In this document: positions 21,871 through 42,304 of the stretch, one piece after another
Layout: each line of letters opens with the position of its first letter
How positions within the stretch are numbered: position 1 is the first letter of the stretch
Assembly (NCBI GenBank): GCA_009903775.1
Contig: WYEM01000018.1
Span: 1-44,041, forward strand
Length of the DNA stretch: 44,041 bases
Reading direction: 5' to 3'
From: Nitrososphaerota archaeon
GTDB lineage: Archaea > Thermoproteota > Nitrososphaeria > Conexivisphaerales > Conexivisphaeraceae
Notes under the pieces: generated by a model
The model's input: the letters and a program-made list of their open reading frames with translations, nothing else
What the model was told of the DNA's origin: nothing
The model's database searches: none
Made by a program: the position numbers and the translations under genes

Positions 21871-22457
21871 GCTGCGTGGAGTCCGTCGAGGGCGGGCCCA
21901 GGTGGTCCAGGAGGTCCACCCTGAGGATCCTGGGCGCCTACGCGCGGGGGCTCGAGGGGCTGGAGGAATACAGCCACGCCTTCATAATATATCTGCTGAG
22001 CGGATCGAGGTGGAGCGGCAGCCTGAAGGCCCGGCCGCGCTGGGCGCCCCGCCCCCTCGGCGTCTTCGCCACCAGGAGCCCCGACCGCCCGAACCCGATA
22101 GGGATATCGGTGGTCGCGCTGGAGCTCGTGGATCCGGGCGCCGGCCTGCTCGTGGTCCGCGGCCTGGACGCCCTCCCAGGGTCCCCTGTGCTCGACGTGA
22201 AGCCCTACGATCACTGGGACTCGGTGCTCTCGCCCCGCGTGCCCCGCTGGTGGCTGGAGCGCCCGGAGGACTGGCCGGACTGGTCGCCCAGGCCCCCTAG
22301 CGCAGCACGGCCACGACCTTCTCGGCGGCGCCCGCCGAGTAAAGGGTCCTCGTCCCCCCGCCCTCGGCTATTATCCTGGAGGCGAGGTCCGCGTCCAGGA
22401 CCCGCGTGCCGGCCAGCAGGTCCACGCCGTGCCTCGAGAACGTGCCGGGGGCCATGA
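21825..22457 (+). CDS. TrmO/TsaA-family (UPF0066) protein, probable tRNA methyltransferase
   Basis: A beta-barrel SAM-dependent methyltransferase of the UPF0066 family; bacterial TrmO methylates t6A37 of tRNA. Family landmarks are LAPIGCVES at the N-terminus, LEEYSHAFIIYLL, FATRSPDRPNPIGISVVALE (nucleotide and SAM binding) and LDVKPYDHWDS. The gene starts at ATG 21825, inside the end of the MBL gene. Conserved sequence ends around residue 155 (near 22290). The frame then lacks a stop until 22457, giving an Arg/Pro-rich tail antisense to the DUF364 gene. Confidence 0.75.
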   Translation: MAGGACGEPASLAPIGCVESVEGGPRWSRRSTLRILGAYARGLEGLEEYSHAFIIYLLSGSRWSGSLKARPRWAPRPLGVFATRSPDRPNPIGISVVALELVDPGAGLLVVRGLDALPGSPVLDVKPYDHWDSVLSPRVPRWWLERPEDWPDWSPRPPSAARPRPSRRRPPSKGSSSPRPRLLSWRRGPRPGPACRPAGPRRASRTCRGP

Positions 22458-23046
22458 CGGTGGTCGGCCCCACTATCGCCCTGATCCTTGCGCGGGACGA
22501 GAGCTCCAGGAGCCTGTCGAGCGTCTTGTTCACCAGGGTGGCGCCGCTCAGCACGGCCACGTCGCACCTCCCCATCAGGACCTCGGAGGCCCACCAGGGC
22601 CTGTATCCGGGGTCATCGACGGGCCTGAACTCGAACACCGTGACCTCCGCGCCCGCCTCCCTAGCGCCCCTCGCTATGGCCGGCACGTACCCGACCATGC
22701 AGACCCTGTCGCCCCTCCTCACCCTCAGGTGATCCATCAGGTCGCCGCGCGCGTAGCCGGCGGCGAGCCTGGACGCCGCCGCGTTGAGGGCGGCCACGCC
22801 CAGCGCGGACAGCACCGGGTGGTCGCTCATGGCGAGGCGGGCCACGTCCTCCCAGGCCGCGCCCGCCACCCTGCCCGCCATGGGGTTGTTCTCGCACTCG
22901 TGGGCGGCGTCCTCCGTGGGCGTGTGAGAGAGCCCCGCGCTGCCGTCCTCCATGACGACTATCGTGTACCCCAGGCCGACCACCGCCCTGGCCACCCTGC
23001 CGCCGCCGGCCCCCCTGAGCTCCTCCAGGACCTCCTCCAGGATCAC
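22297..23046 (-). CDS. DUF364/DUF4213 putative heavy-metal chelation protein
   Basis: A 249-residue protein of the COG2014 family. It has an enolase N-domain-like region (VVGLGYTIVVMEDGSAGLSH) followed by a Rossmann-like domain (VCMVGYVPAIARGAREAGAE, CDVAVLSGATLVNKTLDRLL, VGPTTVMAPGTFSRHGVDLL). The family has been proposed to bind heavy metals and often sits near metal-cofactor enzymes; its activity is not proven. The GTG at 23046 has a TATA-like GAAATACG about 26 bases upstream, and it lies 32 bases after the torD-like gene on the same strand. The neighbourhood hints at a role in molybdenum or tungsten enzyme maturation (inference). Confidence 0.75.
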   Translation of the reverse strand: MILEEVLEELRGAGGGRVARAVVGLGYTIVVMEDGSAGLSHTPTEDAAHECENNPMAGRVAGAAWEDVARLAMSDHPVLSALGVAALNAAASRLAAGYARGDLMDHLRVRRGDRVCMVGYVPAIARGAREAGAEVTVFEFRPVDDPGYRPWWASEVLMGRCDVAVLSGATLVNKTLDRLLELSSRARIRAIVGPTTVMAPGTFSRHGVDLLAGTRVLDADLASRIIAEGGGTRTLYSAGAAEKVVAVLR

Positions 23047-23078: not shown

Positions 23079-23786
23079 CTAGCCCCGCGCGGACTCCTCC
23101 AGGAGTGATATCAGCTCGCCCATGGACGCCTCGTCCAGGCTGAGGAACCCGTCCGTGAGGTACCCGAGCCCCTTGTAGAAGTCCACCTCGGAGCTCGACT
23201 CGACGTCGCGCGCGAAAGCGCCCGACCACTTGAGGAGGTGCTCCCTCAGGAACTCCCTCTGGACCTTCATCATCCTCCTGGCCTCGCCCAGGTTGCCCTT
23301 GCCGACCTCCTCCAGGGTCCTCCCTATCAGGTAGGACATGAAGCTGAGCTCCAGGGCTATGTGGTCCTCCGGCTCCCTGAAGCTCTCGACCTTATCGACC
23401 CCCATGTCCCTGTATATGGAGAGCACCTCGTCCCTCTGCTCCTGGTAGATCAGGTGGCCGGCCGACATGTACGCCGACTCCGATGGGTGGGGGGGCGTCC
23501 CCTTGAGGCCCAGGAATAGGCTGGCGTACTCGGCCGCGAGCTCCAGGAGGACCTCCCTCCTGTCGCGGCCGGCCGCGCCGCGCAGGTACCCCAGGATCAG
23601 GTCCAGCCCCCTGCCCACGCGCTCGTCGAGCTGCGAGAGCGCCTCGAAGCGCGCGGCCAGCTCCCCGCTCTCGGCCGCCCTCACGAGCTCCTCCAGGAGC
23701 TCCGCGTCAACCTCCTTCGCGTAGAGCCTGGAGAGCAGATTGTACACGTAGCGCCTGCCCTCGTTGGCCTCCTCGAACCTGCCCAT
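23079..23786 (-). CDS. TorD/DmsD/NarJ-type molybdoenzyme chaperone
   Basis: A 235-residue all-helical protein of the TorD/NarJ family, cytoplasmic chaperones that load the molybdenum cofactor into DMSO-reductase-family enzymes. Visible are an N-terminal RRYVYNLLSRLYAKEVDAEL, the central EYASLFLGLKGTPPHPSESA (the family's Y-x2-LF-x9-P-x-ESVY-like signature), DHIALELSFMSYLI and a C-terminal FYKGLGYLTDGFL. The ATG at 23786 is chosen because GCTTAAATC is centred 28 bases upstream; an upstream in-frame start at 23843 would lie before that box. It diverges from the molybdenum enzyme at 23958, its probable client. Confidence 0.85.
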   Translation of the reverse strand: MGRFEEANEGRRYVYNLLSRLYAKEVDAELLEELVRAAESGELAARFEALSQLDERVGRGLDLILGYLRGAAGRDRREVLLELAAEYASLFLGLKGTPPHPSESAYMSAGHLIYQEQRDEVLSIYRDMGVDKVESFREPEDHIALELSFMSYLIGRTLEEVGKGNLGEARRMMKVQREFLREHLLKWSGAFARDVESSSEVDFYKGLGYLTDGFLSLDEASMGELISLLEESARG

Positions 23787-23804
23787 GACGGTCGTTGGCG
23801 ACCC

Positions 23805-23945
23805 GCGCGATTTAAGCGCGAGGCGCACCGTCCATCGGGTCAATAATTATAGTAATTATATAATTTACCGTAATTAGCTGCGCGTGGCCGGATTATATAT
23901 CGGGTTGGCCCCCGGGACCGAAAACTATATTTCACGTAGGGGCCT
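23805..23945. promoter_or_regulatory. Divergent control region between the chaperone and the molybdenum enzyme
   Basis: This is one of the most AT-rich stretches in the window. TAATTA-like units occur at about 23844, 23853, 23861 (TAATTT) and 23871, spaced 8-10 bases apart and thus on roughly one face of the helix. Two plus-strand TATA candidates follow: ATTATATATC (23892-23901) and CTATATTTC (23925-23933), the second about 30 bases before the ATG at 23958. The minus-strand box TTAAATC serves the chaperone. The regular repeats look like a multi-site operator, but the binding protein is unknown. Confidence 0.55.
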
Positions 23946-23957
23946 GTGGCCCATGAG

Positions 23958-26771
23958 ATGGTTGTGAGCTATGTCGACGCCGTGAGCGCTCTCTCGAGGC
24001 AGTCGGGCGCCGCCGGGCTCGATCCGCAGCTCCTCAGGAGGCTCAGCCCGGAGGAGGCGGAGGCCCTGAAGAGCAGCGGGTACAGGGTCAGCTACGTGAC
24101 GGCGTCCCTCAACGGGCACTCAGTGCTGGCGAACTTCCCACTGGTCGCCTACTGCAAGGACAACAGGATAATCAGGCAGCTCCCGTTCTACATACCCGAC
24201 GGCGTCAGGCGCTGGAAGATAGTGACGGGCCGCGGCGTCTTCGAGAGGCCCAAGAAGGCTCCCAACTACCCGGTGTCCTTCGCCTGGAGGCAGAGGGTCT
24301 ACTCGCCCACCAGGGTCAGGTACCCGCTCAAGAGGGTGGACTGGAGCCCGGAGAACAGGAACACCCAGAACAGGGGCAAGTCGAAGTTCGTCAGGATAAG
24401 CTGGGACGAGGCCATAGAGATAATCGCGAGCGAGATAGAGAGGATAAGGAAGGTCTACGGCGGCACCCACGTGGTGCTCGTGCAGGCGGACGGCCACGGC
24501 CAGAGCGGCTTCCTGCACAGCGTGCACTTCTGGGGGCACCACCTGTTCAACGCTCTCGGGACTGGGTGGATACATCAGAACAGGAACCCCGACAGCTGGG
24601 AGGGGTACTACTGGGGCGCCAAGCACGTCTGGGGGTTCGACCAGCCCATAGGCAGGCCGCCGAACGACACCACCTGGGACGACGTGTTCAAGAACGCCGA
24701 GATGATCGTGCTGACGGGCGGCGATCCCCTGACCACCACCGACGCCTGGAACAACTTCCTGGGCACCCACTTCATGCGCTGGATAAAGCAGGCCGGGATC
24801 AAGGTCGTGGCGATATCGCCGGACGTCAACTACACGAACGCGGTCTTCGCGGACAAGTGGATCCCGATAAGGCCCAACACCGACGCCGCGCTCTACTTCG
24901 CCATAGCCTACCTCTGGATACAGTGGGGGACCTACGACAAGAAGTTCATAGAGACGCACACGGTCGGGTTCGAGGAGTTCAGGAGGTACATCCTGGGCGA
25001 GGAGGACGGCGTCCCGAAGACCCCGGAGTGGGCGGAGAGGATAACCGGGGTCCCCGTGGAGACGATAAAGGCGCTCGCCAGGGCGTGGGCCAAGAAGAGG
25101 ACGACCCTGGCGATCCACTACGGGGGGCCCAAGATAAGGGGGATACTCTCGCACCTGCCGGCCAGGGCCGAGGCCTACGTGATGATGATGCAGGGGCTCG
25201 GCGCCCCCGGCAGGCAGTTCGCCAGGTTCCAGCTGCCGGCCTTCACGCTGACCGGGAACGAGAAGGCGCCCACCCTGCCGACCTACATGGAGGTCGTCAA
25301 GGAGGGCGCCCCGGTGAACCCCGTGATGGCCTACTCCTACGAGCTGGTGCCCGGCAGGCCCATATACCCGCCGCCGCCGGGCGCGATACCGCTGATAAAG
25401 ACGCTCGTGCCGGACGCCATCCTGAACCCGCCGGTCGAGTGGTACGGCTCCGGGTCCATCATAGCCCCCACTCAGGACCAGTTCAACAAGTACAGGTTCC
25501 CGCCGACCGACGACCACCCCGGGATACGCATGATATGGAACGAGAACTCGAGCGTCATGACCTGCTGGAACGACTCCTGGAGGTGGGCCCAGGCCTTCAG
25601 GCACCCGAGCGTCGAGTTCATAGTCACGATACACCCATGGCTGGAGAACGACGCGTACTTCTCCGACCTGATCCTCCCCGCCCAGACCGTCTACGAGCAC
25701 GACGACCTGGTGAGCGCCATGTGGGCGGACATGAGGGCGATCTACTACCAGGACAGGTGCGTGGAGCCCATCGGGGAATCCAAGAGCGACTACGAGATCC
25801 ACAAGATGGTGGCTGACAGGCTGGGGGTGGGGAAGGTCAGGCCGGACTTCAGGGACAGCTGGCCGACCGAGGAGTGGTTCCCCGAGCCCGAGAAGTTCCT
25901 AAGGGTCATGTACGAGAAGACGCTGGCCTACAAGAAGTACGGGATAAGCTGGGAAGAGTTCAAGACCAAGAGGAAGATAGTGGTGTACGACGCCCCGACG
26001 CCGGAGGAGTGGGAGCGGATAAAGAACACGGTCGAGAGGCTGCCCGGCGTCCCCGTCAAGGAGGGCCTCAGATGGTACTACGAGCTGCCGGAGGGCAGGG
26101 GGCTGAACACCAAGAGCGGCAAGATGGAGTTCGTCTCGGGATGGCTGAAGGACCACTTCCCGGACGATAAGCTGAGGCCGCCGCTCGCCAAGTGGATAGA
26201 TCACGAGGAGCTGCCCACCTCGCCGAAGGCCAAGAAGTACCCGCTCCAGATGATGTCGAACCACCCGAGGTGGAGGCACCACGCCCAGGGCGACGACATG
26301 CCCTGGATAAGGGAGATACCGACCGCCAAGATAAAGGGGCCGGACGGCTACTACTACGAGCCGCTCTGGATAAACCCGGCCGACGCCGCCAAGAGGGGCA
26401 TAAAGCACGGTGATATAGTGAAGGTGTACAACGACTACGGGGCGGTGCTCGGCGCCGCGTACGTGACTGAGAGGGTGAGGCCGGGGGTCGTGTACATGGA
26501 CCACGGCTCCAAGTTCGACCCCATATCGATAGAGGACAGGATAGACAGGGGAGGCGCGATAGACACGATCGCGCCCCCGACCAGGTGGGTGTACGACAAA
26601 TACCAGCCGGGCCCGATAATAGTCCCCGAGATGCCGGTCAGCGGGTACCTGGTGGAGGTCGAGAAGGTGGACATCGAGGAGCTCAGGAGGAAGTACCCGG
26701 AGGCCTTCAAGAGGGTCGAGAAGATGAACGCGGCCTACGGGCCGGGCTACGAGTCGTGGGTGATGGGGTGA
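23958..26771 (+). CDS. Large subunit of a transhydroxylase-like molybdopterin enzyme (DMSO reductase family)
   Basis: A 937-residue catalytic subunit of the Mo-bisMGD superfamily, probably cytoplasmic: there is no twin-arginine signal and no N-terminal Fe-S cysteine motif. Closest in architecture, by recall, is Pelobacter pyrogallol-phloroglucinol transhydroxylase (AthL/BthL). The shared stretch NPDSWEG..WG..H.WGF carries its Asp174-Ser175-Trp176, the Ser being the Mo ligand; here these are 216-218 counted from the GTG at 23946. Its His144 matches His184. Other shared blocks are RISWDEA, VADKW/FADKW, SFAIAYTW/YFAIAYLW, CIEPVGES/CVEPIGES, SDYEI, KYPLxMxSxHPR and RGIKxGD. Pocket residues Tyr152 and Arg153 are Ser192 and Val193 here, so the substrate may differ. 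An extra N-terminus of about 45 residues is unexplained. ATG 23958 fits the TATA spacing; GTG 23946 is the alternative. The Fe-S subunit follows by 4 bases. Confidence 0.8.
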   Translation: MVVSYVDAVSALSRQSGAAGLDPQLLRRLSPEEAEALKSSGYRVSYVTASLNGHSVLANFPLVAYCKDNRIIRQLPFYIPDGVRRWKIVTGRGVFERPKKAPNYPVSFAWRQRVYSPTRVRYPLKRVDWSPENRNTQNRGKSKFVRISWDEAIEIIASEIERIRKVYGGTHVVLVQADGHGQSGFLHSVHFWGHHLFNALGTGWIHQNRNPDSWEGYYWGAKHVWGFDQPIGRPPNDTTWDDVFKNAEMIVLTGGDPLTTTDAWNNFLGTHFMRWIKQAGIKVVAISPDVNYTNAVFADKWIPIRPNTDAALYFAIAYLWIQWGTYDKKFIETHTVGFEEFRRYILGEEDGVPKTPEWAERITGVPVETIKALARAWAKKRTTLAIHYGGPKIRGILSHLPARAEAYVMMMQGLGAPGRQFARFQLPAFTLTGNEKAPTLPTYMEVVKEGAPVNPVMAYSYELVPGRPIYPPPPGAIPLIKTLVPDAILNPPVEWYGSGSIIAPTQDQFNKYRFPPTDDHPGIRMIWNENSSVMTCWNDSWRWAQAFRHPSVEFIVTIHPWLENDAYFSDLILPAQTVYEHDDLVSAMWADMRAIYYQDRCVEPIGESKSDYEIHKMVADRLGVGKVRPDFRDSWPTEEWFPEPEKFLRVMYEKTLAYKKYGISWEEFKTKRKIVVYDAPTPEEWERIKNTVERLPGVPVKEGLRWYYELPEGRGLNTKSGKMEFVSGWLKDHFPDDKLRPPLAKWIDHEELPTSPKAKKYPLQMMSNHPRWRHHAQGDDMPWIREIPTAKIKGPDGYYYEPLWINPADAAKRGIKHGDIVKVYNDYGAVLGAAYVTERVRPGVVYMDHGSKFDPISIEDRIDRGGAIDTIAPPTRWVYDKYQPGPIIVPEMPVSGYLVEVEKVDIEELRRKYPEAFKRVEKMNAAYGPGYESWVMG

Positions 26772-26775
26772 GAGC

Positions 26776-27624
26776 ATGGGCAAGGTGATGGTAATAGACG
26801 TGGCCGAGTGCATCGGGTGCTACCTGTGCCAGCTCGCGTGCAAGGACGAGCACGTGGGGAACGACTGGAGCCCATACGCGAAGCCGCAGCCCGAGGTCGG
26901 CCACTTCTGGATGAAGCTCAACGACATGGAGAGGGGCGGCGGATCCTTCACGAGGGTCAGCTACGTGCCGACGCTCTGCGCGCACTGCGAGAACGCGCCG
27001 TGCATGAACGTGTGCCCCGTGAACGCGATCTACAGGAGCGACGACGGCGCAGTCATAATAGACCCGGAGAAGTGCAACGGGTGCGCCGACTACGGCTACG
27101 AGCCGCTGTGCCAGAGGGCGTGCCCCTACGGCGCCATATACTTCAACGAGGAGCTCAAGATAGCCCAGAAGTGCACCTTCTGCGAGCACCTGCTGAAGAG
27201 CGGGTGGAAGCAGCCGAGGTGCGCCGACGTGTGCCCCACCGACGCGATAAAGTTCGGCGACGAGGACGACCCGGAGATGAGGAAGCTCATGGAGGGCGCG
27301 GAGCCGCTCCACCCGGAGGTCGACGTGAAGCCGAGGGTCCTCTACCGCAACCTCCCCAGGCCCTACATAGCCGGCACCATAATAGATCCCGCGGCCAGGG
27401 AGGTGGTGGAGGGCGCGTCCGTGACGGCGATAGACGTCGTGAGCAGGAAGGAGTACAGGACCCTCACTGACGAGTTCGGCGACTTCTGGCTGAGGGGCCT
27501 CGAGTGGAACCACAAGTACCTGGTGAAGGTGGAGAAGGACGGCTACTCCCCCAAGGTCCTCGGCGTGCTGTCCACCGAGAAGGACGTGGTCCTGGAGCGC
27601 GTGGAGCTCTATAGGAAGGCCTGA
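26776..27624 (+). CDS. Fe-S small subunit of the transhydroxylase-like enzyme, with a C-terminal transthyretin-like domain
   Basis: A 282-residue partner of the upstream catalytic subunit. Residues 1 to about 180 are a DmsB-type ferredoxin with cysteine groups CIGCYLCQLAC (from residue 12), CAHCENAPCMNVCP, CNGC with CQRACP, and CTFC with CADVCP, enough for three or more [4Fe-4S] clusters. HFWMKLNDMERG, then VPTLCAHCENAPC and KPRVLYRNL align in order with the small subunit of Pelobacter transhydroxylase as I recall it. Residues about 195-282 (RPYIAGTIIDP, EGASVTAIDV, FGDFWLRGL, YLVKVEKDGYS) form a carboxypeptidase-regulatory/transthyretin-like beta domain. That C-terminal domain is characteristic of the transhydroxylase and absent from ordinary DmsB or PsrB. 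There is no membrane-anchor gene next door. ATG at 26776, 4 bases after the large subunit. Confidence 0.85.
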   Translation: MGKVMVIDVAECIGCYLCQLACKDEHVGNDWSPYAKPQPEVGHFWMKLNDMERGGGSFTRVSYVPTLCAHCENAPCMNVCPVNAIYRSDDGAVIIDPEKCNGCADYGYEPLCQRACPYGAIYFNEELKIAQKCTFCEHLLKSGWKQPRCADVCPTDAIKFGDEDDPEMRKLMEGAEPLHPEVDVKPRVLYRNLPRPYIAGTIIDPAAREVVEGASVTAIDVVSRKEYRTLTDEFGDFWLRGLEWNHKYLVKVEKDGYSPKVLGVLSTEKDVVLERVELYRKA

Positions 27625-36156: not shown

Positions 36157-36389
36157 ATGCCGGAAAAGCTCTACACGACTGGTGAAGTCGCAAAGACTTT
36201 CGGCGTATCCTACGTAACCGTCAAGAAGTGGGCTTACTCGGGGAAAATCAAGTACACATTAGAACGCCCGGCGGTAAATACAGGTACCCTGAAAGCGAGA
36301 TTAAGAGGCTCCTCGGCGAGCGGGCACTGAAAGGCGAGGTCGCAATTTACGCGAGAGTAAGCTCGGCGGATCAGAGAGGAGGCCGTTGA
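36157..36389 (+). pseudogene. tnpA: IS607 tnpA remnant: HTH, a frameshift, then truncation at the catalytic serine motif
   Basis: From ATG 36157 the frame gives a MerR-type HTH (LYTTGEVAKTFGVSYVTVKK), then shifts near 36256. The expected continuation, RTPGGKYRYPESEIKRLLG followed by VAIYARVSSADQR, is found in another frame (36258-36389). YARVSS is the serine-recombinase active-site motif. The sequence stops right after it, so most of the roughly 130-residue catalytic domain is missing. The product cannot recombine DNA. TATA-like TTTATTAAC lies about 31 bases upstream. Confidence 0.8.
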
Positions 36390-36391
36390 GA

Positions 36392-37561
36392 GTGCCATTA
36401 GAGACTGTTAAGCTCACTGCGAGCTTTAAGCTGGACGGATCTTTCCCAGAGAGCCTCTTCTCGACATATAGGGAGATCCTAGGACAACTGCTCGACCACG
36501 CTTGGGCGAAGGGGGTAACGAGCTTCGAGAGGCTTAAGGCGGAGAAGTACCACGAGCTGAGGGCGAGGTACCCGAGCCTTCCGTCGCACTACATCTATAC
36601 GGCCTGCCAGATGGCCTGCTCCATCTACAAGAGCTCCAGGAAGCTCAAGAGGAGGGGCGTGGCGAAGGCCGAGAAGCCCCTCTTCAAGAAGCAGGTCATG
36701 ATGCTGGACGACCACCTGTTCAGCCTCGACCTTGAAGGCTGGGAGGCCTCGATAGCCGTCGGAGGAGGCAAGGTTAGGGTGAAGTTGCTCCACGGGACGT
36801 ACCACGAGAAGTTCAAGGGCATGAGGGTCGGCCAAGCTTGGCTCGTGAAGAGGGGGAGCGACCTCTACTTGAAAGTCGTCTTCTCCAAGGTCGTCGAGGT
36901 GGTGGAGACGAATGAGAAGGCGGTGGCCGTTGACGTGAACGAGAACAACGTCGCCTTCGGCACTATGGAGCGCGTGGTGAACGTGGAGACAAAGGAGAGG
37001 ATCATAAGGACGGCCTACTTCCTCAAGCGCAGGAGGCTCCAGTCCAAGCCTAGGCTGGACGAAAAGCCCCTGCTGGCGAAGTATAGGGGCAGGGAGCGGA
37101 GGAGGGTTGAGGCCATCTACCACAGGATTGCTAATCAAATAATCGACGAAGCGAATGAGGCAAAAGCCTCGACCATCGTGCTAGAGGATCTCACGAATGT
37201 GAGGAAGAGGATTAAACGCTCAAGGGAGCTGAATGGCAGGCTGAACAGGTGGAGCTTCAGAAAGTTTCAGCGGGTAGTGGAGTACAAGGCGAAGCTCGCT
37301 GGCCTGAACGTCGTCTATGTTGACGCTAAGGGGACTTCTAGCCTGTGCCCGGTATGTGGGGGAAGGCTAAGCCCGAATGGGCACAGGAGATTGAAGTGCA
37401 GGTGCGGATTCGAAGAGGATAGGGATGTCGTGGCCGTGAAGAACCTGCTCCGCAGGTACCAGATGGATGTGGGGGCTTCGCCCGTTCACCCCGAAGGCCC
37501 TCCCATGACGACCGAGAGGGATGAAAAGTGCGAGGAGGGAAGGGATGAAAGTTTATTCTAG
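36392..37561 (+). CDS. tnpB: TnpB RNA-guided nuclease (IS607-associated)
   Basis: A 389-residue TnpB, the transposon-encoded ancestor group of Cas12 nucleases, which cut DNA matching a guide RNA made from the element's right end. The RuvC triad appears complete: D181 in VAVDVNENN, E265 in TIVLEDLTN and D345 in EEDRDVVAVKN. The zinc finger is CPVCGG with a second pair in CRCG. LCPVC is preceded by VDAKGTSS, the family's usual TSS..C context. The start is GTG 36392 (TTG 36386 is also in frame). It follows directly on the tnpA remnant. It is probably still a competent nuclease although the recombinase is gone. Confidence 0.88.
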   Translation: MPLETVKLTASFKLDGSFPESLFSTYREILGQLLDHAWAKGVTSFERLKAEKYHELRARYPSLPSHYIYTACQMACSIYKSSRKLKRRGVAKAEKPLFKKQVMMLDDHLFSLDLEGWEASIAVGGGKVRVKLLHGTYHEKFKGMRVGQAWLVKRGSDLYLKVVFSKVVEVVETNEKAVAVDVNENNVAFGTMERVVNVETKERIIRTAYFLKRRRLQSKPRLDEKPLLAKYRGRERRRVEAIYHRIANQIIDEANEAKASTIVLEDLTNVRKRIKRSRELNGRLNRWSFRKFQRVVEYKAKLAGLNVVYVDAKGTSSLCPVCGGRLSPNGHRRLKCRCGFEEDRDVVAVKNLLRRYQMDVGASPVHPEGPPMTTERDEKCEEGRDESLF

Positions 37562-37723: not shown

Positions 37724-39230
37724 GGCATTAAAATGACAAACCTGTCCTCTCCAAGGATGAGGTGAAAGTTTTTAAACTCAAGACTCTATTTCCCTCCGGA
37801 TGCCCTCCTCCGGTCAACTTCTCGAACATGAGGGGCGGGAGCCGATCCCTCCCGCAATACCGGAGGGGGGCATCCGCGAGGTCAAGCACGAGAGCAGGAG
37901 GACGAACGTGGTCCGCCTCCTGCCGAATGGCTCCCAGGAGAGGAAGCTCGGGAGGTTAGCTAGCATCTCGGCGAAGCTCTGGAACGAGGTCAACTACGAG
38001 AGGAGGCAGCAGTTCTTCCGCGGGGAGGGAGTGGACTTAGAGGGCACATACCGCAAATATTATGAGAATAGAAGCGCGCTCGGCGTCAACGCGCAGCAGG
38101 TGCTCAATAAGAACAACGAGGCATGGAACTCGTTCTTCTCACTGTTGAAGCGGAGGAGGGAGGGGAAGCTGCCGTCCCACATGAAGCGCGTCGGCCCGCC
38201 GAAATATTGGAAGGACAGGGGAGTAAGGAGAGGAAGCTCATACTGGTAGTCAGGCAGGACAGATATATTGTGGACGAGAGGAATCACAGACTGGTCCTGA
38301 GGGACTTCGGCCTCGAAATTAATTTCGCGGGCAGGCTGAGGTGGCACGGCAAGCAGGGCAGGCTGGAGATACGCCACGACGAGGCGAGGGAGGCCTGGTA
38401 CGCCTCCATGCCAGTCGAGGTCGGGGTTGAGACTACGAGGAATGGCAATAGGTCGAAGCACGTGGTCCGCGGGGAGAGGAAATCGATTCGGATGGCGGGG
38501 CCGAGGGGCGATGTTGCCGCGGGGGTGGACCTAGGGATCAACATGCTCGCGAGCGCGGTGACGAGCGATGGCACTTGGCTCCTCTACAGGGGATCGAGGG
38601 CGAAGGAGGACTTCTTCCACCTCACCAGGAGGATAGCCGAGGTACAGTCAGAGGCGGATGAGGCGAGGAAGGGCGGCGACGAGGCTAAGTTCCAGAGGCT
38701 CAACAGGAGGAGGCGGAGGCTCTTCCGGAAGCTCGTGGGGCGCATGGCGCACCTGTACTGGAACCTAGCCAACCATATGGTGAGGGGCCTCTGGGAGCTC
38801 GGGGTGTCCAGGATCTACCTCGGATATCCCCACGACATAGCGCGGGAGAGGGGCAACAAGCTCACGGTGAACATGTGGAGGTATCGCGAACTCATGGACG
38901 CGATCGAGCTGAAGGCGCAGGAGTACGGCATACGCGTGTACGAGGTCGTGGAGTACAGCACCTCTAATCACTGCGCGGTCCACGGGACGAAGGTGGCGAG
39001 GGGCCCGAGGGGAGTGGTCACCTGCCCGCTCGGGCACAGGCTGCACAGCGACCTCAATGGGGCCCTGAACATATTGAGGCGCGGCGCCGGCGCGATCCCG
39101 GCAACGCTCGGGAGGCCGCTCTCCTTCCTCGTGGACCACTGCGGAGTAGCGCCCGTCAAGGGGGCGTAACCGACGAGACCCCGCCCCGGGATCCCCGGGG
39201 AACCCCCGCCCTTCTAGGCGGGGAGGGGGT
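37724..39230 (+). mobile_element. TnpB-only element (about 1.51 kb), IS200/IS605-like
   Basis: Boundaries are set by exact repair of the peroxiredoxin frame: flank ...AAGTCAT, then the element from GGCATTAAAATG, ending ...GGGGAGGGGGT, then flank CAGCACCC. It carries only a tnpB (frameshifted); no Y1 transposase or serine recombinase is present, so it would need one in trans. The right end after the tnpB stop (39170-39230) contains the palindromic CCCCGGGATCCCCGGGG and a terminal hairpin, as expected of a region that also forms the guide RNA scaffold. It has the same orientation as the IS607-like element in the same host gene. Confidence 0.8.
37800..39169 (+). pseudogene. tnpB: tnpB of the second element, interrupted by one frameshift
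   Basis: Frame 1 (37800-38249) gives TnpB residues up to GPPKYWKDRG. The continuation SKERKLILVVRQDRYIVDE is in the next frame (to 39169). Adding one G in the run at about 38218-38221 would join them into a protein of about 456 residues. RuvC-I is AAGVDLGINML and RuvC-III is HSDLNGALNILRR. The RuvC-II strand reads IYLGYPHDIA, where most TnpBs have an acidic VEDL-like motif, and the zinc-ribbon positions are CAVH and CPLGH rather than CxxC pairs. TATA-like GTTTTTAAAC is centred about 29 bases before the ATG. The homopolymer position makes a sequencing error a live alternative to true decay. Confidence 0.8.
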
Positions 39231-39503: not shown

Positions 39504-40346
39504 GTGCGCGCCCGAACCGCGCTCGCGCTGGCGGCCTACACGGTGGCGAACTCGCTGGGGTACTTCTTCGCCAAGTACGCCCTGGAGTGGGCCTCCCCAA
39601 TCCTCCTGATGGCCCTGAGGTACGCGGTCGCGGGCGCATTCCTCGCGCTGGCCGGCGGCGGCTTGATCCTGAGGCGCGACGTCCTGGTGCTCGCGGCCCT
39701 CACGGCGTCCTCCAGCGCCCTCTGGGCGCTGGGGCTGGAGTACGTGTCGCCGGCCTCCTCGGCCGTCCTGAGCTACACCATGCCCTTCTTCTCGGTGCCC
39801 CTCGCCTACCTCGTGCTCGGGGAGAGGCACGCCCGCTCGGAGGTCCTGGGGATCTCCCTGGGCTTCCTGGGCGTCTCCATCTACAGCGTCCCGCTCATGC
39901 GCGGCCTGGAGGCTGTGGGAGCCGCCCTCACGCTCGCCAATGCCCTGCTCTGGGCGGCGTACACCGTGTACTACAGGAAGCTGAGGGATCTGGATCCCCT
40001 GTCCGTCAACGCCACCCAGTTCGCGCTGGGCGCCGCCATGCTCGCGCCCATCTCCCCCATCGGCTTCCGCCTCGATCCGACGGTGGGCTTCGCGCTCTGC
40101 CTCCTGCTGCTGGCTATACCCTCGGGGGCGCTGGTCTTCCTCCTCTGGAACCTGATACTGAGGGAGGAGAGCGTGGGGCGCTCCACTGCGCTGGCGTTCT
40201 CCGTCCCGCTGTTCTCCGTGGCCCTGCAATCGGCGCTGGCGCTCAGGCCGCCGTCCGCGCCGGAGATCCTGGGGATGGCGGTCATGCTCTCCGGGATAGC
40301 TATTTCGGGATGGTCCGCCGACGCCCGCGCGGGGCGCCCAACATGA
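39504..40346 (+). CDS. EamA/DMT-family transporter
   Basis: A 280-residue, ten-helix drug/metabolite transporter made of two five-helix EamA repeats. The first half contains LLMALRYAVAGAFLAL and SALWALGLEYVSPASSAVLS; the second contains LLWAAYTVYYRKL and PSGALVFLLWNLILREES. Substrate unknown; family members export amino acids, nucleotides or drugs. GTG at 39504 is 27 bases after CCTTAAATC. It is divergent from the broken peroxiredoxin and followed by transposon relics. Confidence 0.88.
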   Translation: MRARTALALAAYTVANSLGYFFAKYALEWASPILLMALRYAVAGAFLALAGGGLILRRDVLVLAALTASSSALWALGLEYVSPASSAVLSYTMPFFSVPLAYLVLGERHARSEVLGISLGFLGVSIYSVPLMRGLEAVGAALTLANALLWAAYTVYYRKLRDLDPLSVNATQFALGAAMLAPISPIGFRLDPTVGFALCLLLLAIPSGALVFLLWNLILREESVGRSTALAFSVPLFSVALQSALALRPPSAPEILGMAVMLSGIAISGWSADARAGRPT

Positions 40347-40536
40347 TAAAAACGAAAACCCTCGCCCCTTCTGGGGGCGGGGTCGTCCCACCCCGTGGGC
40401 CGGGGCGGAGGGCTTTTAAGCCTTTTAAGCAGGGCCTTGTTAGGATGCTCAGCAGCGCCCGTCAAGGGGGCGTAACCGACGAGACCCCGCCCCGGGATCC
40501 CCGGGGAACCCTCGCCACTCAGGGCGGGGAGGGGGT
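40347..40536 (+). mobile_element. Right-end relic(s) of a TnpB element upstream of a molybdenum enzyme
   Basis: Bases 40455-40536 match 39149-39230, the tnpB tail plus right end of the intact element, at about 77 of 82 positions counted by eye, including the terminal GGGGAGGGGGT. The preceding codons read LGCSAAPVKGA then stop, a tnpB C-terminus. A second hairpin of the same type (CTCGCCCCTTCTGGGGGCGGGG, 40361-40382) lies just upstream. No transposase core remains. Host sequence resumes at CATAGCGTG, which encodes the start of the conserved part of the next gene. Confidence 0.75.
40411..40430 (+). promoter_or_regulatory. Twin CTTTTAAG boxes upstream of the molybdenum enzyme
   Basis: CTTTTAAG occurs at 40413-40420 and again at 40422-40429. 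The first is centred about 28 bases before the ATG at 40445, the leaderless spacing seen elsewhere. Both boxes lie within the transposon-derived patch. Confidence 0.5.
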
Positions 40537-42304
40537 CATAGCGTGCACCAGGGACTGCTACGACGGCTGCATCTTCGACGGCTCGTACGCGCCCATCGGC
40601 CGGTATCCCACGTCCGGATTCACGTGCGCCAGGGGCAGGATGGACCTCGCCAGGAACCGCGTCAACAGGATAGAGTCGGCGCGCGTCGACGGGAGGGAAG
40701 TCGAGATGGGCGAGGCGATACGGCGCGCGGCATCGCTCATAGGCGAGGAGATGAGGCGGGATCCGGGCAGGATCCTGCACGTGGATTACGACGGCAACCA
40801 GGGGCTCCTCACCTGGTACTACCCGGCCAGGCTTTTCACCGCGATCGGCGCCTCCAGGACGGACTACTCGATATGCTCCGCCGAGGGGCACGCCGCGATA
40901 AGGCTGCACTACGGCACGAGCGCGGGGGCGCTTCCGGAGGAATTCCCCGGCTACGGCGCCGCGGTCCTCTGGGCGTTCCCTGCCAGCGTGTCGGCGCCCC
41001 ACATTTGGAGGTCGATATCGGGCGCGACCAAGGTGTCGATCGACGTGCGGCTCAGCGACACCGCCAGGAGGTCGCAGAAACGCATCATCGTTCGCCCGGG
41101 GTCCGACTCCTTCCTGGCCATCGGCGTCATCAAGGTCCTCCTGGAGGAGGGCCTGGCATCCGGCGAGGTCATCCACCGCCGGGAGCTGGAGGAATTCGCG
41201 GCGGGCTACTCGATGGAAACCTTGACCTCGGCCACGGGCGTGCCCGAGCGGGAGCTGAGGTGGCTGGCGGAGTTCTACGCGAGCGAGAAGCCGCTCACGC
41301 TCATAGGCTTCGCCCTGGGGCGCTCCCCGGGCGGAGGGGACGCCATATCGCTGATATCGCTCATACCGGCGCTGGTGGGCCTCAGGAGGGGATTCTACTA
41401 CAGCAATTCGATGGGCCTCGGCATAGACTTCGACTACCTGAGGGGGTACCACATGGGGAGGAACTCGCGCGTGGTGGGGATGGCGCGCCTCAGGGAGGAG
41501 CTGGAGTCCGGCCGCGTCGGGCTCGTGTACGTGTGGAACATGAACCCCGCGGTGACCCTGCCCGGGGGGAGCTCCATACTGGAGGCGGCCCAGGAGGGCC
41601 GCATATCCCTGATAGTGCACGACCCGTTCTGGACCGAGACTGCCAGGGCGGCGGACGTCGTGCTGCCCGCGCCGACGTTCCTGGAGAAGGCGGACGTGGC
41701 CTACAGCTACTGGCACGACTACCTCGTCTACAACTCGCCCGTGGCGGAGCCTCTCGGGATGCGCGAGTCCGACCTCATCCGGGCGATCGCGCGCGAGGCC
41801 GGGATATCGCACCCGCTGCTGGACGAGGATCCCTGGGACGCGGTCGACGCGGCCCTCAGGGGCACGGGCGTGACCCTGGGCGAGCTGAGGTCCTCCGGCA
41901 TGGCCAGGGTCCGGAACTACCCGCCCCCGCGCGTCCCCGACGCGCTCCCCCTGCCGCGCCCATCCCCTCCCCCGAGCCCCGGTCCCGGGGAGCTCCTGCT
42001 GGTGTTCACGTCCCACCCCCTGTACACCAACACGCAGTTTCGCGAGGTCCACGGGCGCCCGGAGCCGGTCATACACACCCGCGAGATGGAGGGGGAGGTC
42101 ATCCTCGAGACGGGCCTCGGGAGGGCCAGGGTGAGGGCGGTGAGGGACCCGGGGGTCCCCCCCGGGGTCGCGTGGATGTACAAGAGCGCGCTCGTCGACC
42201 TGGACGGGAGGCCCATCAACGACCTGCTGGGGGGAGCGGCCGGCCCCTACGCGGGGACCCCCGTGCTCAACGGCGTGCCGGTGCGCGTCCTCCACCTTAA
42301 GTGA
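40445..42304 (+). CDS. Molybdopterin oxidoreductase with N-terminal [4Fe-4S] motif
   Basis: About 619 residues from ATG 40445. The conserved part begins at about residue 31 with ACTRDCYDGC and FTCARGRMDLA, the four-Cys cluster motif of formate dehydrogenase/polysulfide reductase-like enzymes. SICSAEGHAAIRLHYG follows, where a Cys is a possible Mo ligand. Later come LVYVWNMNPAVTLPG, IVHDPFWTETARAADVVLPA and TFLEKADVAYSY, the cofactor-binding blocks of the family. At about 600 residues it is shorter than typical catalytic subunits, and the C-terminal MGD-binding domain is compact. There is no signal peptide and no partner subunit nearby, so the reaction is unknown. The first 30 residues are translated from transposon right-end DNA; the native start has probably been displaced. 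Confidence 0.8.
   Translation: MLSSARQGGVTDETPPRDPRGTLATQGGEGVIACTRDCYDGCIFDGSYAPIGRYPTSGFTCARGRMDLARNRVNRIESARVDGREVEMGEAIRRAASLIGEEMRRDPGRILHVDYDGNQGLLTWYYPARLFTAIGASRTDYSICSAEGHAAIRLHYGTSAGALPEEFPGYGAAVLWAFPASVSAPHIWRSISGATKVSIDVRLSDTARRSQKRIIVRPGSDSFLAIGVIKVLLEEGLASGEVIHRRELEEFAAGYSMETLTSATGVPERELRWLAEFYASEKPLTLIGFALGRSPGGGDAISLISLIPALVGLRRGFYYSNSMGLGIDFDYLRGYHMGRNSRVVGMARLREELESGRVGLVYVWNMNPAVTLPGGSSILEAAQEGRISLIVHDPFWTETARAADVVLPAPTFLEKADVAYSYWHDYLVYNSPVAEPLGMRESDLIRAIAREAGISHPLLDEDPWDAVDAALRGTGVTLGELRSSGMARVRNYPPPRVPDALPLPRPSPPPSPGPGELLLVFTSHPLYTNTQFREVHGRPEPVIHTREMEGEVILETGLGRARVRAVRDPGVPPGVAWMYKSALVDLDGRPINDLLGGAAGPYAGTPVLNGVPVRVLHLK

Follow-up and report, generated by a model that had tools for sequence, protein, structure and literature searches.

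A distant archaeal relative of pyrogallol transhydroxylase with an adjoining TorD-family chaperone

The Pelobacter enzyme AthLS, which is bacterial, transfers hydroxyl groups on pyrogallol. Its family, RhL/PgtL, also includes the resorcinol hydroxylase RhLS, a cytoplasmic enzyme of the serine type that carries out a net oxidative hydroxylation (PMC10100899). A survey of about 47,000 MopB proteins found 285 members of RhL/PgtL, none of them archaeal, and its authors argued that the functions of this family could date only from the time after land plants appeared (PMC10100899). The gut catechol dehydroxylases are reported to group with acetylene hydratase and apart from pyrogallol hydroxytransferase (PMC7028382).

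We analyzed a 44,041-nucleotide stretch of archaeal DNA (the window) that encodes an enzyme of this kind. In the literature that we searched, we found no description of archaeal transhydroxylases or of archaeal members of the AthL group. We find that the two clades of the RhL/PgtL family (clade I, which contains AthL, and clade II) are both present in several archaeal lineages, and these archaeal members qualify the picture drawn by the MopB survey. Judging from the sequences, the window enzyme is a distant cousin of AthL, and it belongs to clade II, a large group in which we found, and know of, no characterized member.

The locus and its gene products

A first-pass annotation of the window had described a large subunit, a small subunit, and a divergent chaperone between positions 23079 and 27624, and all three genes are there. 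The large-subunit gene (23946..26771, plus strand) encodes a 941-amino-acid Mo-bisPGD protein that we assign to clade IIa of the RhL/PgtL family. The small-subunit gene follows it (26776..27624, plus strand) and encodes 282 amino acids, with 16 cluster cysteines and a transthyretin-like domain. The chaperone gene (23079..23843, minus strand) diverges from the large-subunit gene. In the divergent promoter region (23787..23957, to which we assign no strand), reading the sequence directly, we noticed two archaeal TATA-like boxes: cgaaaaCTATATTTc at about 23919-23932, upstream of the large-subunit gene, and CTTAAATC on the minus strand at about 23808-23815, on the chaperone side. (Both were found by eye, by comparison with the archaeal consensus.) From the position of the first box and an alignment with locus L042, the large subunit likely starts at the ATG at 23958; from the position of the second box, the chaperone likely starts at 23786. 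The boxes would fit leaderless starts at these two positions.

The closest solved structure to the large subunit is AthL (4v4c_A; 420.7 bits by phmmer over residues 64-889; 32.6% identity). TMAO and DMSO reductases are the runners-up, at 209-234 bits, and acetylene hydratase (2e7z) scores only 52 bits, as compared to 421 for AthL. An AlphaFold model of the large subunit (pLDDT 86.6) also has 4v4c_A as its top PDB match by Foldseek (E = 1.9e-69), with acetylene hydratase at rank 32. As catechol dehydroxylases cluster with acetylene hydratase and the large subunit is far closer to AthL, we rejected the idea that it belongs with them. Pfam identifies Molybdopterin and Molydop_binding domains in the large subunit; the Pfam model for AhtL-like domain 1 gives just 13 bits, which is under its 27-bit cut-off, as compared to 75.6 bits for a paralogue on another contig (C7) of the same genome. 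The small subunit tells the same story: AthS (4v4c_B) is its first match among solved structures (163 bits, residues 5-262) and is also the top Foldseek match of its model (pLDDT 96.3; E = 3.3e-28). So the proposal that the two subunits have a transhydroxylase-type architecture holds for both, by sequence and by structure. The small subunit has Fer4 domains and, at about residues 188-277, a C-terminal CarboxypepD_reg/transthyretin-like domain (Pfam, E = 1e-11), and its model also matches the transthyretin-like domain of carboxypeptidase D by Foldseek; the C-terminal fold that had been predicted is present.

The large subunit was also said to lack an N-terminal Fe-S motif, to carry an NPDSWEG block, and to be cytoplasmic without a membrane anchor, and we agree on each point. 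Read directly, the sequence has no N-terminal CxxCxxxC (FS0) motif (there is a single cysteine in residues 1-130) and no twin-arginine (Tat) leader. NPDSWEG is at residues 214-220 (24585..24605, plus strand). We did not find a gene for an NrfD/DmsC-type membrane anchor among the neighboring genes that we scanned, which speaks against a membrane-anchored respiratory MopB complex.

The chaperone belongs to the TorD/NarJ family (PF02613, E = 1e-31 by Pfam). A TorD-family gene adjoins the large-subunit gene of clade IIa in six archaeal loci: in the window, in its relatives G001 and G003, on contig C106 of the window's own genome (G000), in a member of the Methanomethylicota (L056), and in a locus from the wider phylum (L146). 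Furthermore, in a seventh locus, from G003, a TorD domain and a clade II large subunit form a single 1,103-amino-acid open reading frame, with the chaperone at the N-terminal end (L047 8783..12094, minus strand). By Pfam, this protein has PF02613 at residues 46-178, and then AhtL-like domain 1 and the two molybdopterin domains. The fusion is known from this one assembled genome, and the fused paralogue departs from the catalytic histidine (it has leucine) and from the tryptophan (phenylalanine). We found no TorD-molybdoenzyme fusion described in the titles and abstracts of the literature that we searched. Judged by gene order and gene structure, the adjacency and the fusion are strong evidence that the TorD-type chaperone is dedicated to the large subunits of clade IIa. 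The first-pass annotation had called the chaperone dedicated; conservation in relatives and the fusion in one of them make for a stronger case than was claimed. On the other side of the chaperone is a DUF364/DUF4213 protein ("putative heavy-metal chelation"; 22297-23046 of the window), which is 75% identical to its counterpart in the syntenic G001. It may have a link to the supply of metal.

Family tree, active site, and electron path

We gathered homologues from relatives of the window's genome, from GTDB genomes (80 kept out of at least 582 relatives), from plasmids, and from 300 genomes of the same phylum, 10 of which were positive at E = 1e-60. We built two trees, one with 91 rows and one with 55 rows, bootstrap, and SH-aLRT values, and used TorA and an S/N-oxide reductase as the outgroup. 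Both trees show the same division of the family into clade I, with AthL (support 100/99 in the 55-row tree), and clade II, with the window's large subunit (100/100). In both, the window protein and AthL belong together, and TorA, the S/N-oxide reductase, and DmsA lie outside. This is the tree that had been suggested as a check on the relationship: the DMSO and TMAO reductases are more distant. Neither of the outcomes that the first-pass annotation had named as counting against it was observed (a large subunit placed firmly with arsenate, thiosulfate, or DMSO reductases, and a small subunit whose model has no transthyretin-like fold). On the other hand, placement in clade II rather than in the AthL clade argues strongly against orthology to AthL.

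Within clade II, the window protein lies in subclade IIa (99/98). Most of its members are from archaea (Nitrososphaeria, Nezhaarchaeota, Thermoprotei, Methanomethylicota, and Ca. Terraquivivens), but the subclade has a small proteobacterial group nested in it (L055, L057, L058, L062, and L080), which suggests transfer from archaea to bacteria. The rest of clade II is bacterial (Chloroflexota, Actinomycetota such as Gordonibacter, Adlercreutzia, and Ellagibacter, Sporomusa, and desulfobacteria), except for two archaeal rows near its base. Horizontal transfer could explain part of the occurrence of the family in archaea. We count two copies from clade II and two from clade I in each of three genomes: the window's own, which is incomplete, and those of its two best relatives (G001 and G003). 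Four copies of RhL/PgtL apiece are thus present in this genome and in two others from the same family, both small and one complete. The second clade II large subunit of G001 (L043 9246-11978) is 70% identical to the window protein, and we found no small subunit adjoining it; some stretches of the C-terminal half match the first copy exactly, which suggests gene conversion.

For the roles of residues in AthL we rely on what was reportedly described along with the transhydroxylase structure in 2004, and we checked the residue letters against the sequence of 4v4c as recovered from phmmer output. We take His144 and Asp174 to be the proposed acid/base pair, which is linked to phenol chemistry; Ser175 is presumably the molybdenum ligand, and Tyr152, Arg153, Tyr404, and Phe468 are presumably residues of the phenol pocket. 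Among the alignment rows with a residue at the position, the equivalent of His144 is conserved in 67 of 68 clade II proteins and 19 of 19 from clade I; Asp174 in 68/68 and 18/19; and Ser175 in 68/68 and 19/19. Trp176, Glu177, and Gly178 are also almost invariant across both clades. The His/Asp pair is absent from the outgroup proteins TorA, the S/N-oxide reductase, and DmsA. The window protein retains all three residues, as His184 (codon at 24495..24497, plus strand, by alignment), Asp216, and Ser217, the last two being within the NPDSWEG block; Ser217 is the expected molybdenum ligand. The pocket is another matter. None of the four pocket residues is retained in the alignment of the window protein. 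Across the family, Tyr404 is present in 20/20 members of clade I versus 0/68 of clade II, Tyr152 in 15/19 versus 0/68, and Phe468 is found mostly in clade I, while Trp354 of AthL falls in a segment that is deleted from clade II. These alignments support the view that the window enzyme has the same oxygen-transfer core as AthL but a different substrate pocket.

The 16 cluster cysteines of the small subunit form four groups of four, or four predicted [4Fe-4S] clusters, as in the four-cluster beta subunits of the DMSO reductase family. AthS has just 12. The positions that are absent from AthS and from the small subunits of clade I are cysteines 80, 100, 103, and 112 (AthS keeps the last cysteine of the third group), and together they would make up a single cluster, presumably the terminal one if NarH is taken as a guide. 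Among small subunits for which we could identify the partner large subunit, the terminal-cluster cysteines are absent from all 13 in clade I and are kept in 35 of 47 in clade II; every archaeal IIa small subunit that we examined has all 16 cysteines. The four predicted clusters favor a reaction with a net exchange of electrons over a redox-neutral transhydroxylation. However, on the tree the fourth cluster has been gained or lost at least five times, and the four-cluster form is probably ancestral, so its retention is not proof of electron transfer. Two expectations carried over from AthL are therefore not supported. A reaction that is redox-neutral overall should not be taken for granted, mainly because the small subunit has an intact fourth cluster that AthS lacks. 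And the enzyme should not be expected to do what AthL does, given its separate clade, the loss of Tyr152, Arg153, Tyr404, and Phe468, and the retention of this cluster.

The host genome and the gene neighborhoods

The window is contig C102 of a genome that is 1.45 Mb in size and 79.8% complete. Archaeal amoA was present in 3/3 tested genomes of the same class and is absent from the window's genome and from two relatives. Therefore, the host, which had been recognized as an archaeon from the letters alone, is a non-ammonia-oxidizing member of the class Nitrososphaeria, a placement that the family pattern fits as well. The first-pass description of the host as thermophile-like is plausible.

The locus is syntenic with G001 from aconitase through the small subunit. 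The conserved neighbors are aconitase, DUF2250, DUF364, and a metallo-hydrolase-like open reading frame, with no aromatic-pathway gene among them. Because the synteny extends to aconitase, DUF364 and the other upstream neighbors look like ordinary background, and we rejected them as functional partners. Farther along the window are two OrfB_IS605/TnpB-type (Cas12f1-like TNB) open reading frames, about 0.6 kb apart (36386-37561 and 38123-39169), and a second MopB-type open reading frame (39587-42304, with its real start probably near 40.3 kb), which has an N-terminal cysteine motif (CTRDCYDGC...FTCARG) and is weakly similar to formate dehydrogenases (43 bits).

Elsewhere in the genome there are two closer relatives of AthL (52% and 45% identity, versus 32.6% for the window protein). 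The closer of these, on contig C7, has its 52% identity to AthL along the length of the protein and keeps Tyr152, Arg153, Tyr404, and Phe468. On the basis of its pocket residues and this identity, the C7 paralogue, and not the window protein, is the likely equivalent of AthL in this host. Its cluster (C7:27000-35058, or L040 8708-17057) encodes the paralogue, a small subunit, a fusion of enoyl-CoA hydratase and cyclase, a short-chain dehydrogenase (SDR), and a CoA-transferase; in the complete sister genome, the cluster also includes genes for a thiolase and a ligase-like protein. A gene for an ABC transporter ATPase lies upstream. Judging by gene content, the C7 cluster would be a better candidate for an archaeal pathway of the pyrogallol type than the window genes are. 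The lyase BKACE, which acts on TAL, is absent from all five archaeal genomes that we searched, so the canonical phloroglucinol route of Clostridium is incomplete in the window's relatives. Also, we rejected the SDR of this cluster as a phloroglucinol reductase, as its best matches are gluconate dehydrogenases. Given these two results, any archaeal route would have to be a variant.

A second cluster in the window's genome (C56:587-16000, or L160) includes genes for a benzoate-CoA ligase family protein, BcrABCD-like proteins, a dienoyl-CoA hydratase-like protein, a BadH-like protein, and 2-oxoacid:ferredoxin oxidoreductase. The ligase family protein is above the curated cut-off, and the BcrB-, BcrA-, BcrD-, and BcrC-like proteins are below the equivalog cut-offs. 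The tetranucleotide profile of C56 is similar to that of the rest of the genome, and genes of the BcrB/C type are absent from G001 and G003, which are two more complete sister genomes. This is possibly a class I benzoyl-CoA reductase cluster in an archaeon of the Nitrososphaeria, and its genes would be pointing to anaerobic aromatic metabolism.

Other clade II loci offer clues. A clade I large subunit is also encoded in 11 of 80 clade II loci (which span up to about 22.7 kb). In two loci from Actinomycetota (L093 and L103), enzymes of both clades occur with thiolase, SDRs, IclR regulators, and 3-hydroxyacyl-CoA dehydrogenase. A proteobacterial locus (L088) has two clade II large subunits, then two genes from the "cyclase" family (PF04199), an SDR, and a 3-hydroxyacyl-CoA dehydrogenase. 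The best PDB match of this SDR is 5g4k, which we take to be the phloroglucinol reductase of Clostridium. These gene types match those of the phloroglucinol cluster of Clostridium scatologenes, whose pathway comprises an SDR-type reductase, a cyclase-family cyclohydrolase, a dehydrogenase, a lyase, and a thiolase (PMC10470551). This context supports a tentative link between clade II enzymes and phenolics. The suggestion that the window holds an undescribed pathway has only indirect support: the neighbors of the three genes are not pathway genes, but a pathway-like context is found on other contigs of the same genome and in bacterial clade II loci.

Proposed function and comparison with known systems

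Most likely, in our view, this is a soluble cytoplasmic enzyme of the RhL/PgtL family that either adds a hydroxyl group to a phenolic compound or removes one reductively and that uses a soluble electron carrier, and we would put the probability of this, including the predicted class of substrate, at about one half (0.52). The fold, the clade, the catalytic residues, the altered pocket, the cluster cysteines, and the association and fusion with the chaperone come directly from computation. We infer the phenolic substrate, the direction of the reaction, and the electron partner, and the predicted substrate class of clade II relies on homology and gene neighborhoods. In such an enzyme, the large subunit with its Ser-ligated Mo-bisPGD and the Fe-S small subunit would act together on the phenolic compound, with His184 and Asp216 as an acid-base pair assisting oxygen transfer at the molybdenum, as proposed for AthL. 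Unlike in AthL, net electrons would enter or leave through the four [4Fe-4S] clusters of the small subunit, with ferredoxin or another soluble carrier as the partner. Insertion of the cofactor into the large subunit would be the task of the TorD-type chaperone, as a separate protein acting in trans here and in cis in one relative; because the large subunit has no Tat leader, we expect its role to be maturation and not export.

It is unlikely, in our view, that the enzyme is instead a redox-neutral transhydroxylase that acts like AthL on a different polyphenol (e.g., hydroxyhydroquinone) and needs a tetrahydroxybenzene co-substrate. The AthL fold, the His/Asp/Ser core, the transthyretin-like domain of the small subunit, and the lack of FS0 in the large subunit would all be expected of one, and bacterial clade II genes do adjoin genes of the AthL and phloroglucinol-pathway types. 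Yet the window protein has none of the four pocket residues and is in a separate clade, and AthS has no counterpart to the complete fourth cluster of the small subunit. The altered pocket could also be taken to mean that the substrate is not aromatic at all (an S- or N-oxide, an oxyanion, a quinone, or an aliphatic compound) and that the likeness to AthL reflects shared ancestry only. DMSO and TMAO reductases are the next-nearest characterized families, and no aromatic-pathway genes lie next to the window genes. Against a reductase or hydroxylase of this sort stand the equivalents of His144 and Asp174, which hardly vary within clade II but are missing from TorA, DmsA, and the S/N-oxide reductase, and the phloroglucinol-type genes in bacterial clade II loci, so we consider it quite improbable.

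If the enzyme were an orthologue of AthL, turning pyrogallol into phloroglucinol as part of a tannin-type pathway in archaea, the architecture and the best solved match would be explained, but the same genome encodes two closer relatives of AthL (52% and 45%), one of them with the pocket residues of AthL in place and at the head of a cluster of the ring-degradation type. We think there is very little chance of this. Returning to the phenol hydroxylase or dehydroxylase that we prefer, a broader proposal is that subclade IIa represents a class of soluble molybdenum phenol (de)hydroxylases in archaea, with net electrons passing through a four-cluster small subunit and with a dedicated TorD that can exist as a cis fusion, and that these enzymes would serve, alongside AthL-type enzymes and the products of CoA-dependent ring-degradation genes, in a previously undescribed archaeal polyphenol pathway. 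As a whole, this is doubtful.

The archaeal members of RhL/PgtL open up the metabolism of phenolic compounds in non-ammonia-oxidizing Nitrososphaeria. The family also allows a test of whether the loss or retention of the terminal Fe-S cluster separates redox-neutral from redox-active members. And because bacterial clade II enzymes occur in the gut genera Gordonibacter and Adlercreutzia, a function for any one of them would inform gut polyphenol metabolism.

How does the window enzyme compare to known systems? With AthLS/PgtLS of Pelobacter acidigallici (4v4c), it shares the folds of both subunits, Ser-ligated molybdenum, the equivalents of His144 and Asp174, the lack of FS0, the transthyretin-like domain of the small subunit, and a cytoplasmic location. 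It differs in being just 32.6% identical, in belonging to the sister clade, in its pocket residues, in having 16 rather than 12 cluster cysteines, and in its TorD partner. The DMSO and TMAO reductases DorA and TorA also have Ser-ligated Mo-bisPGD, no FS0, and a TorD-family chaperone; unlike the window enzyme, they have no Fe-S small subunit, are exported by Tat, lack the His/Asp pair, and fall in the outgroup of the tree. The gut catechol dehydroxylases (Dadh, Hcdh, and Cadh) are likewise Mo-bisPGD enzymes that act on phenols and have expanded within genomes. Finally, the resorcinol hydroxylase RhLS of Azoarcus anaerobius is in the same RhL/PgtL family (PMC10100899). Here we compare by description, and its net oxidative hydroxylation is the kind of reaction that we suggest for the window enzyme.
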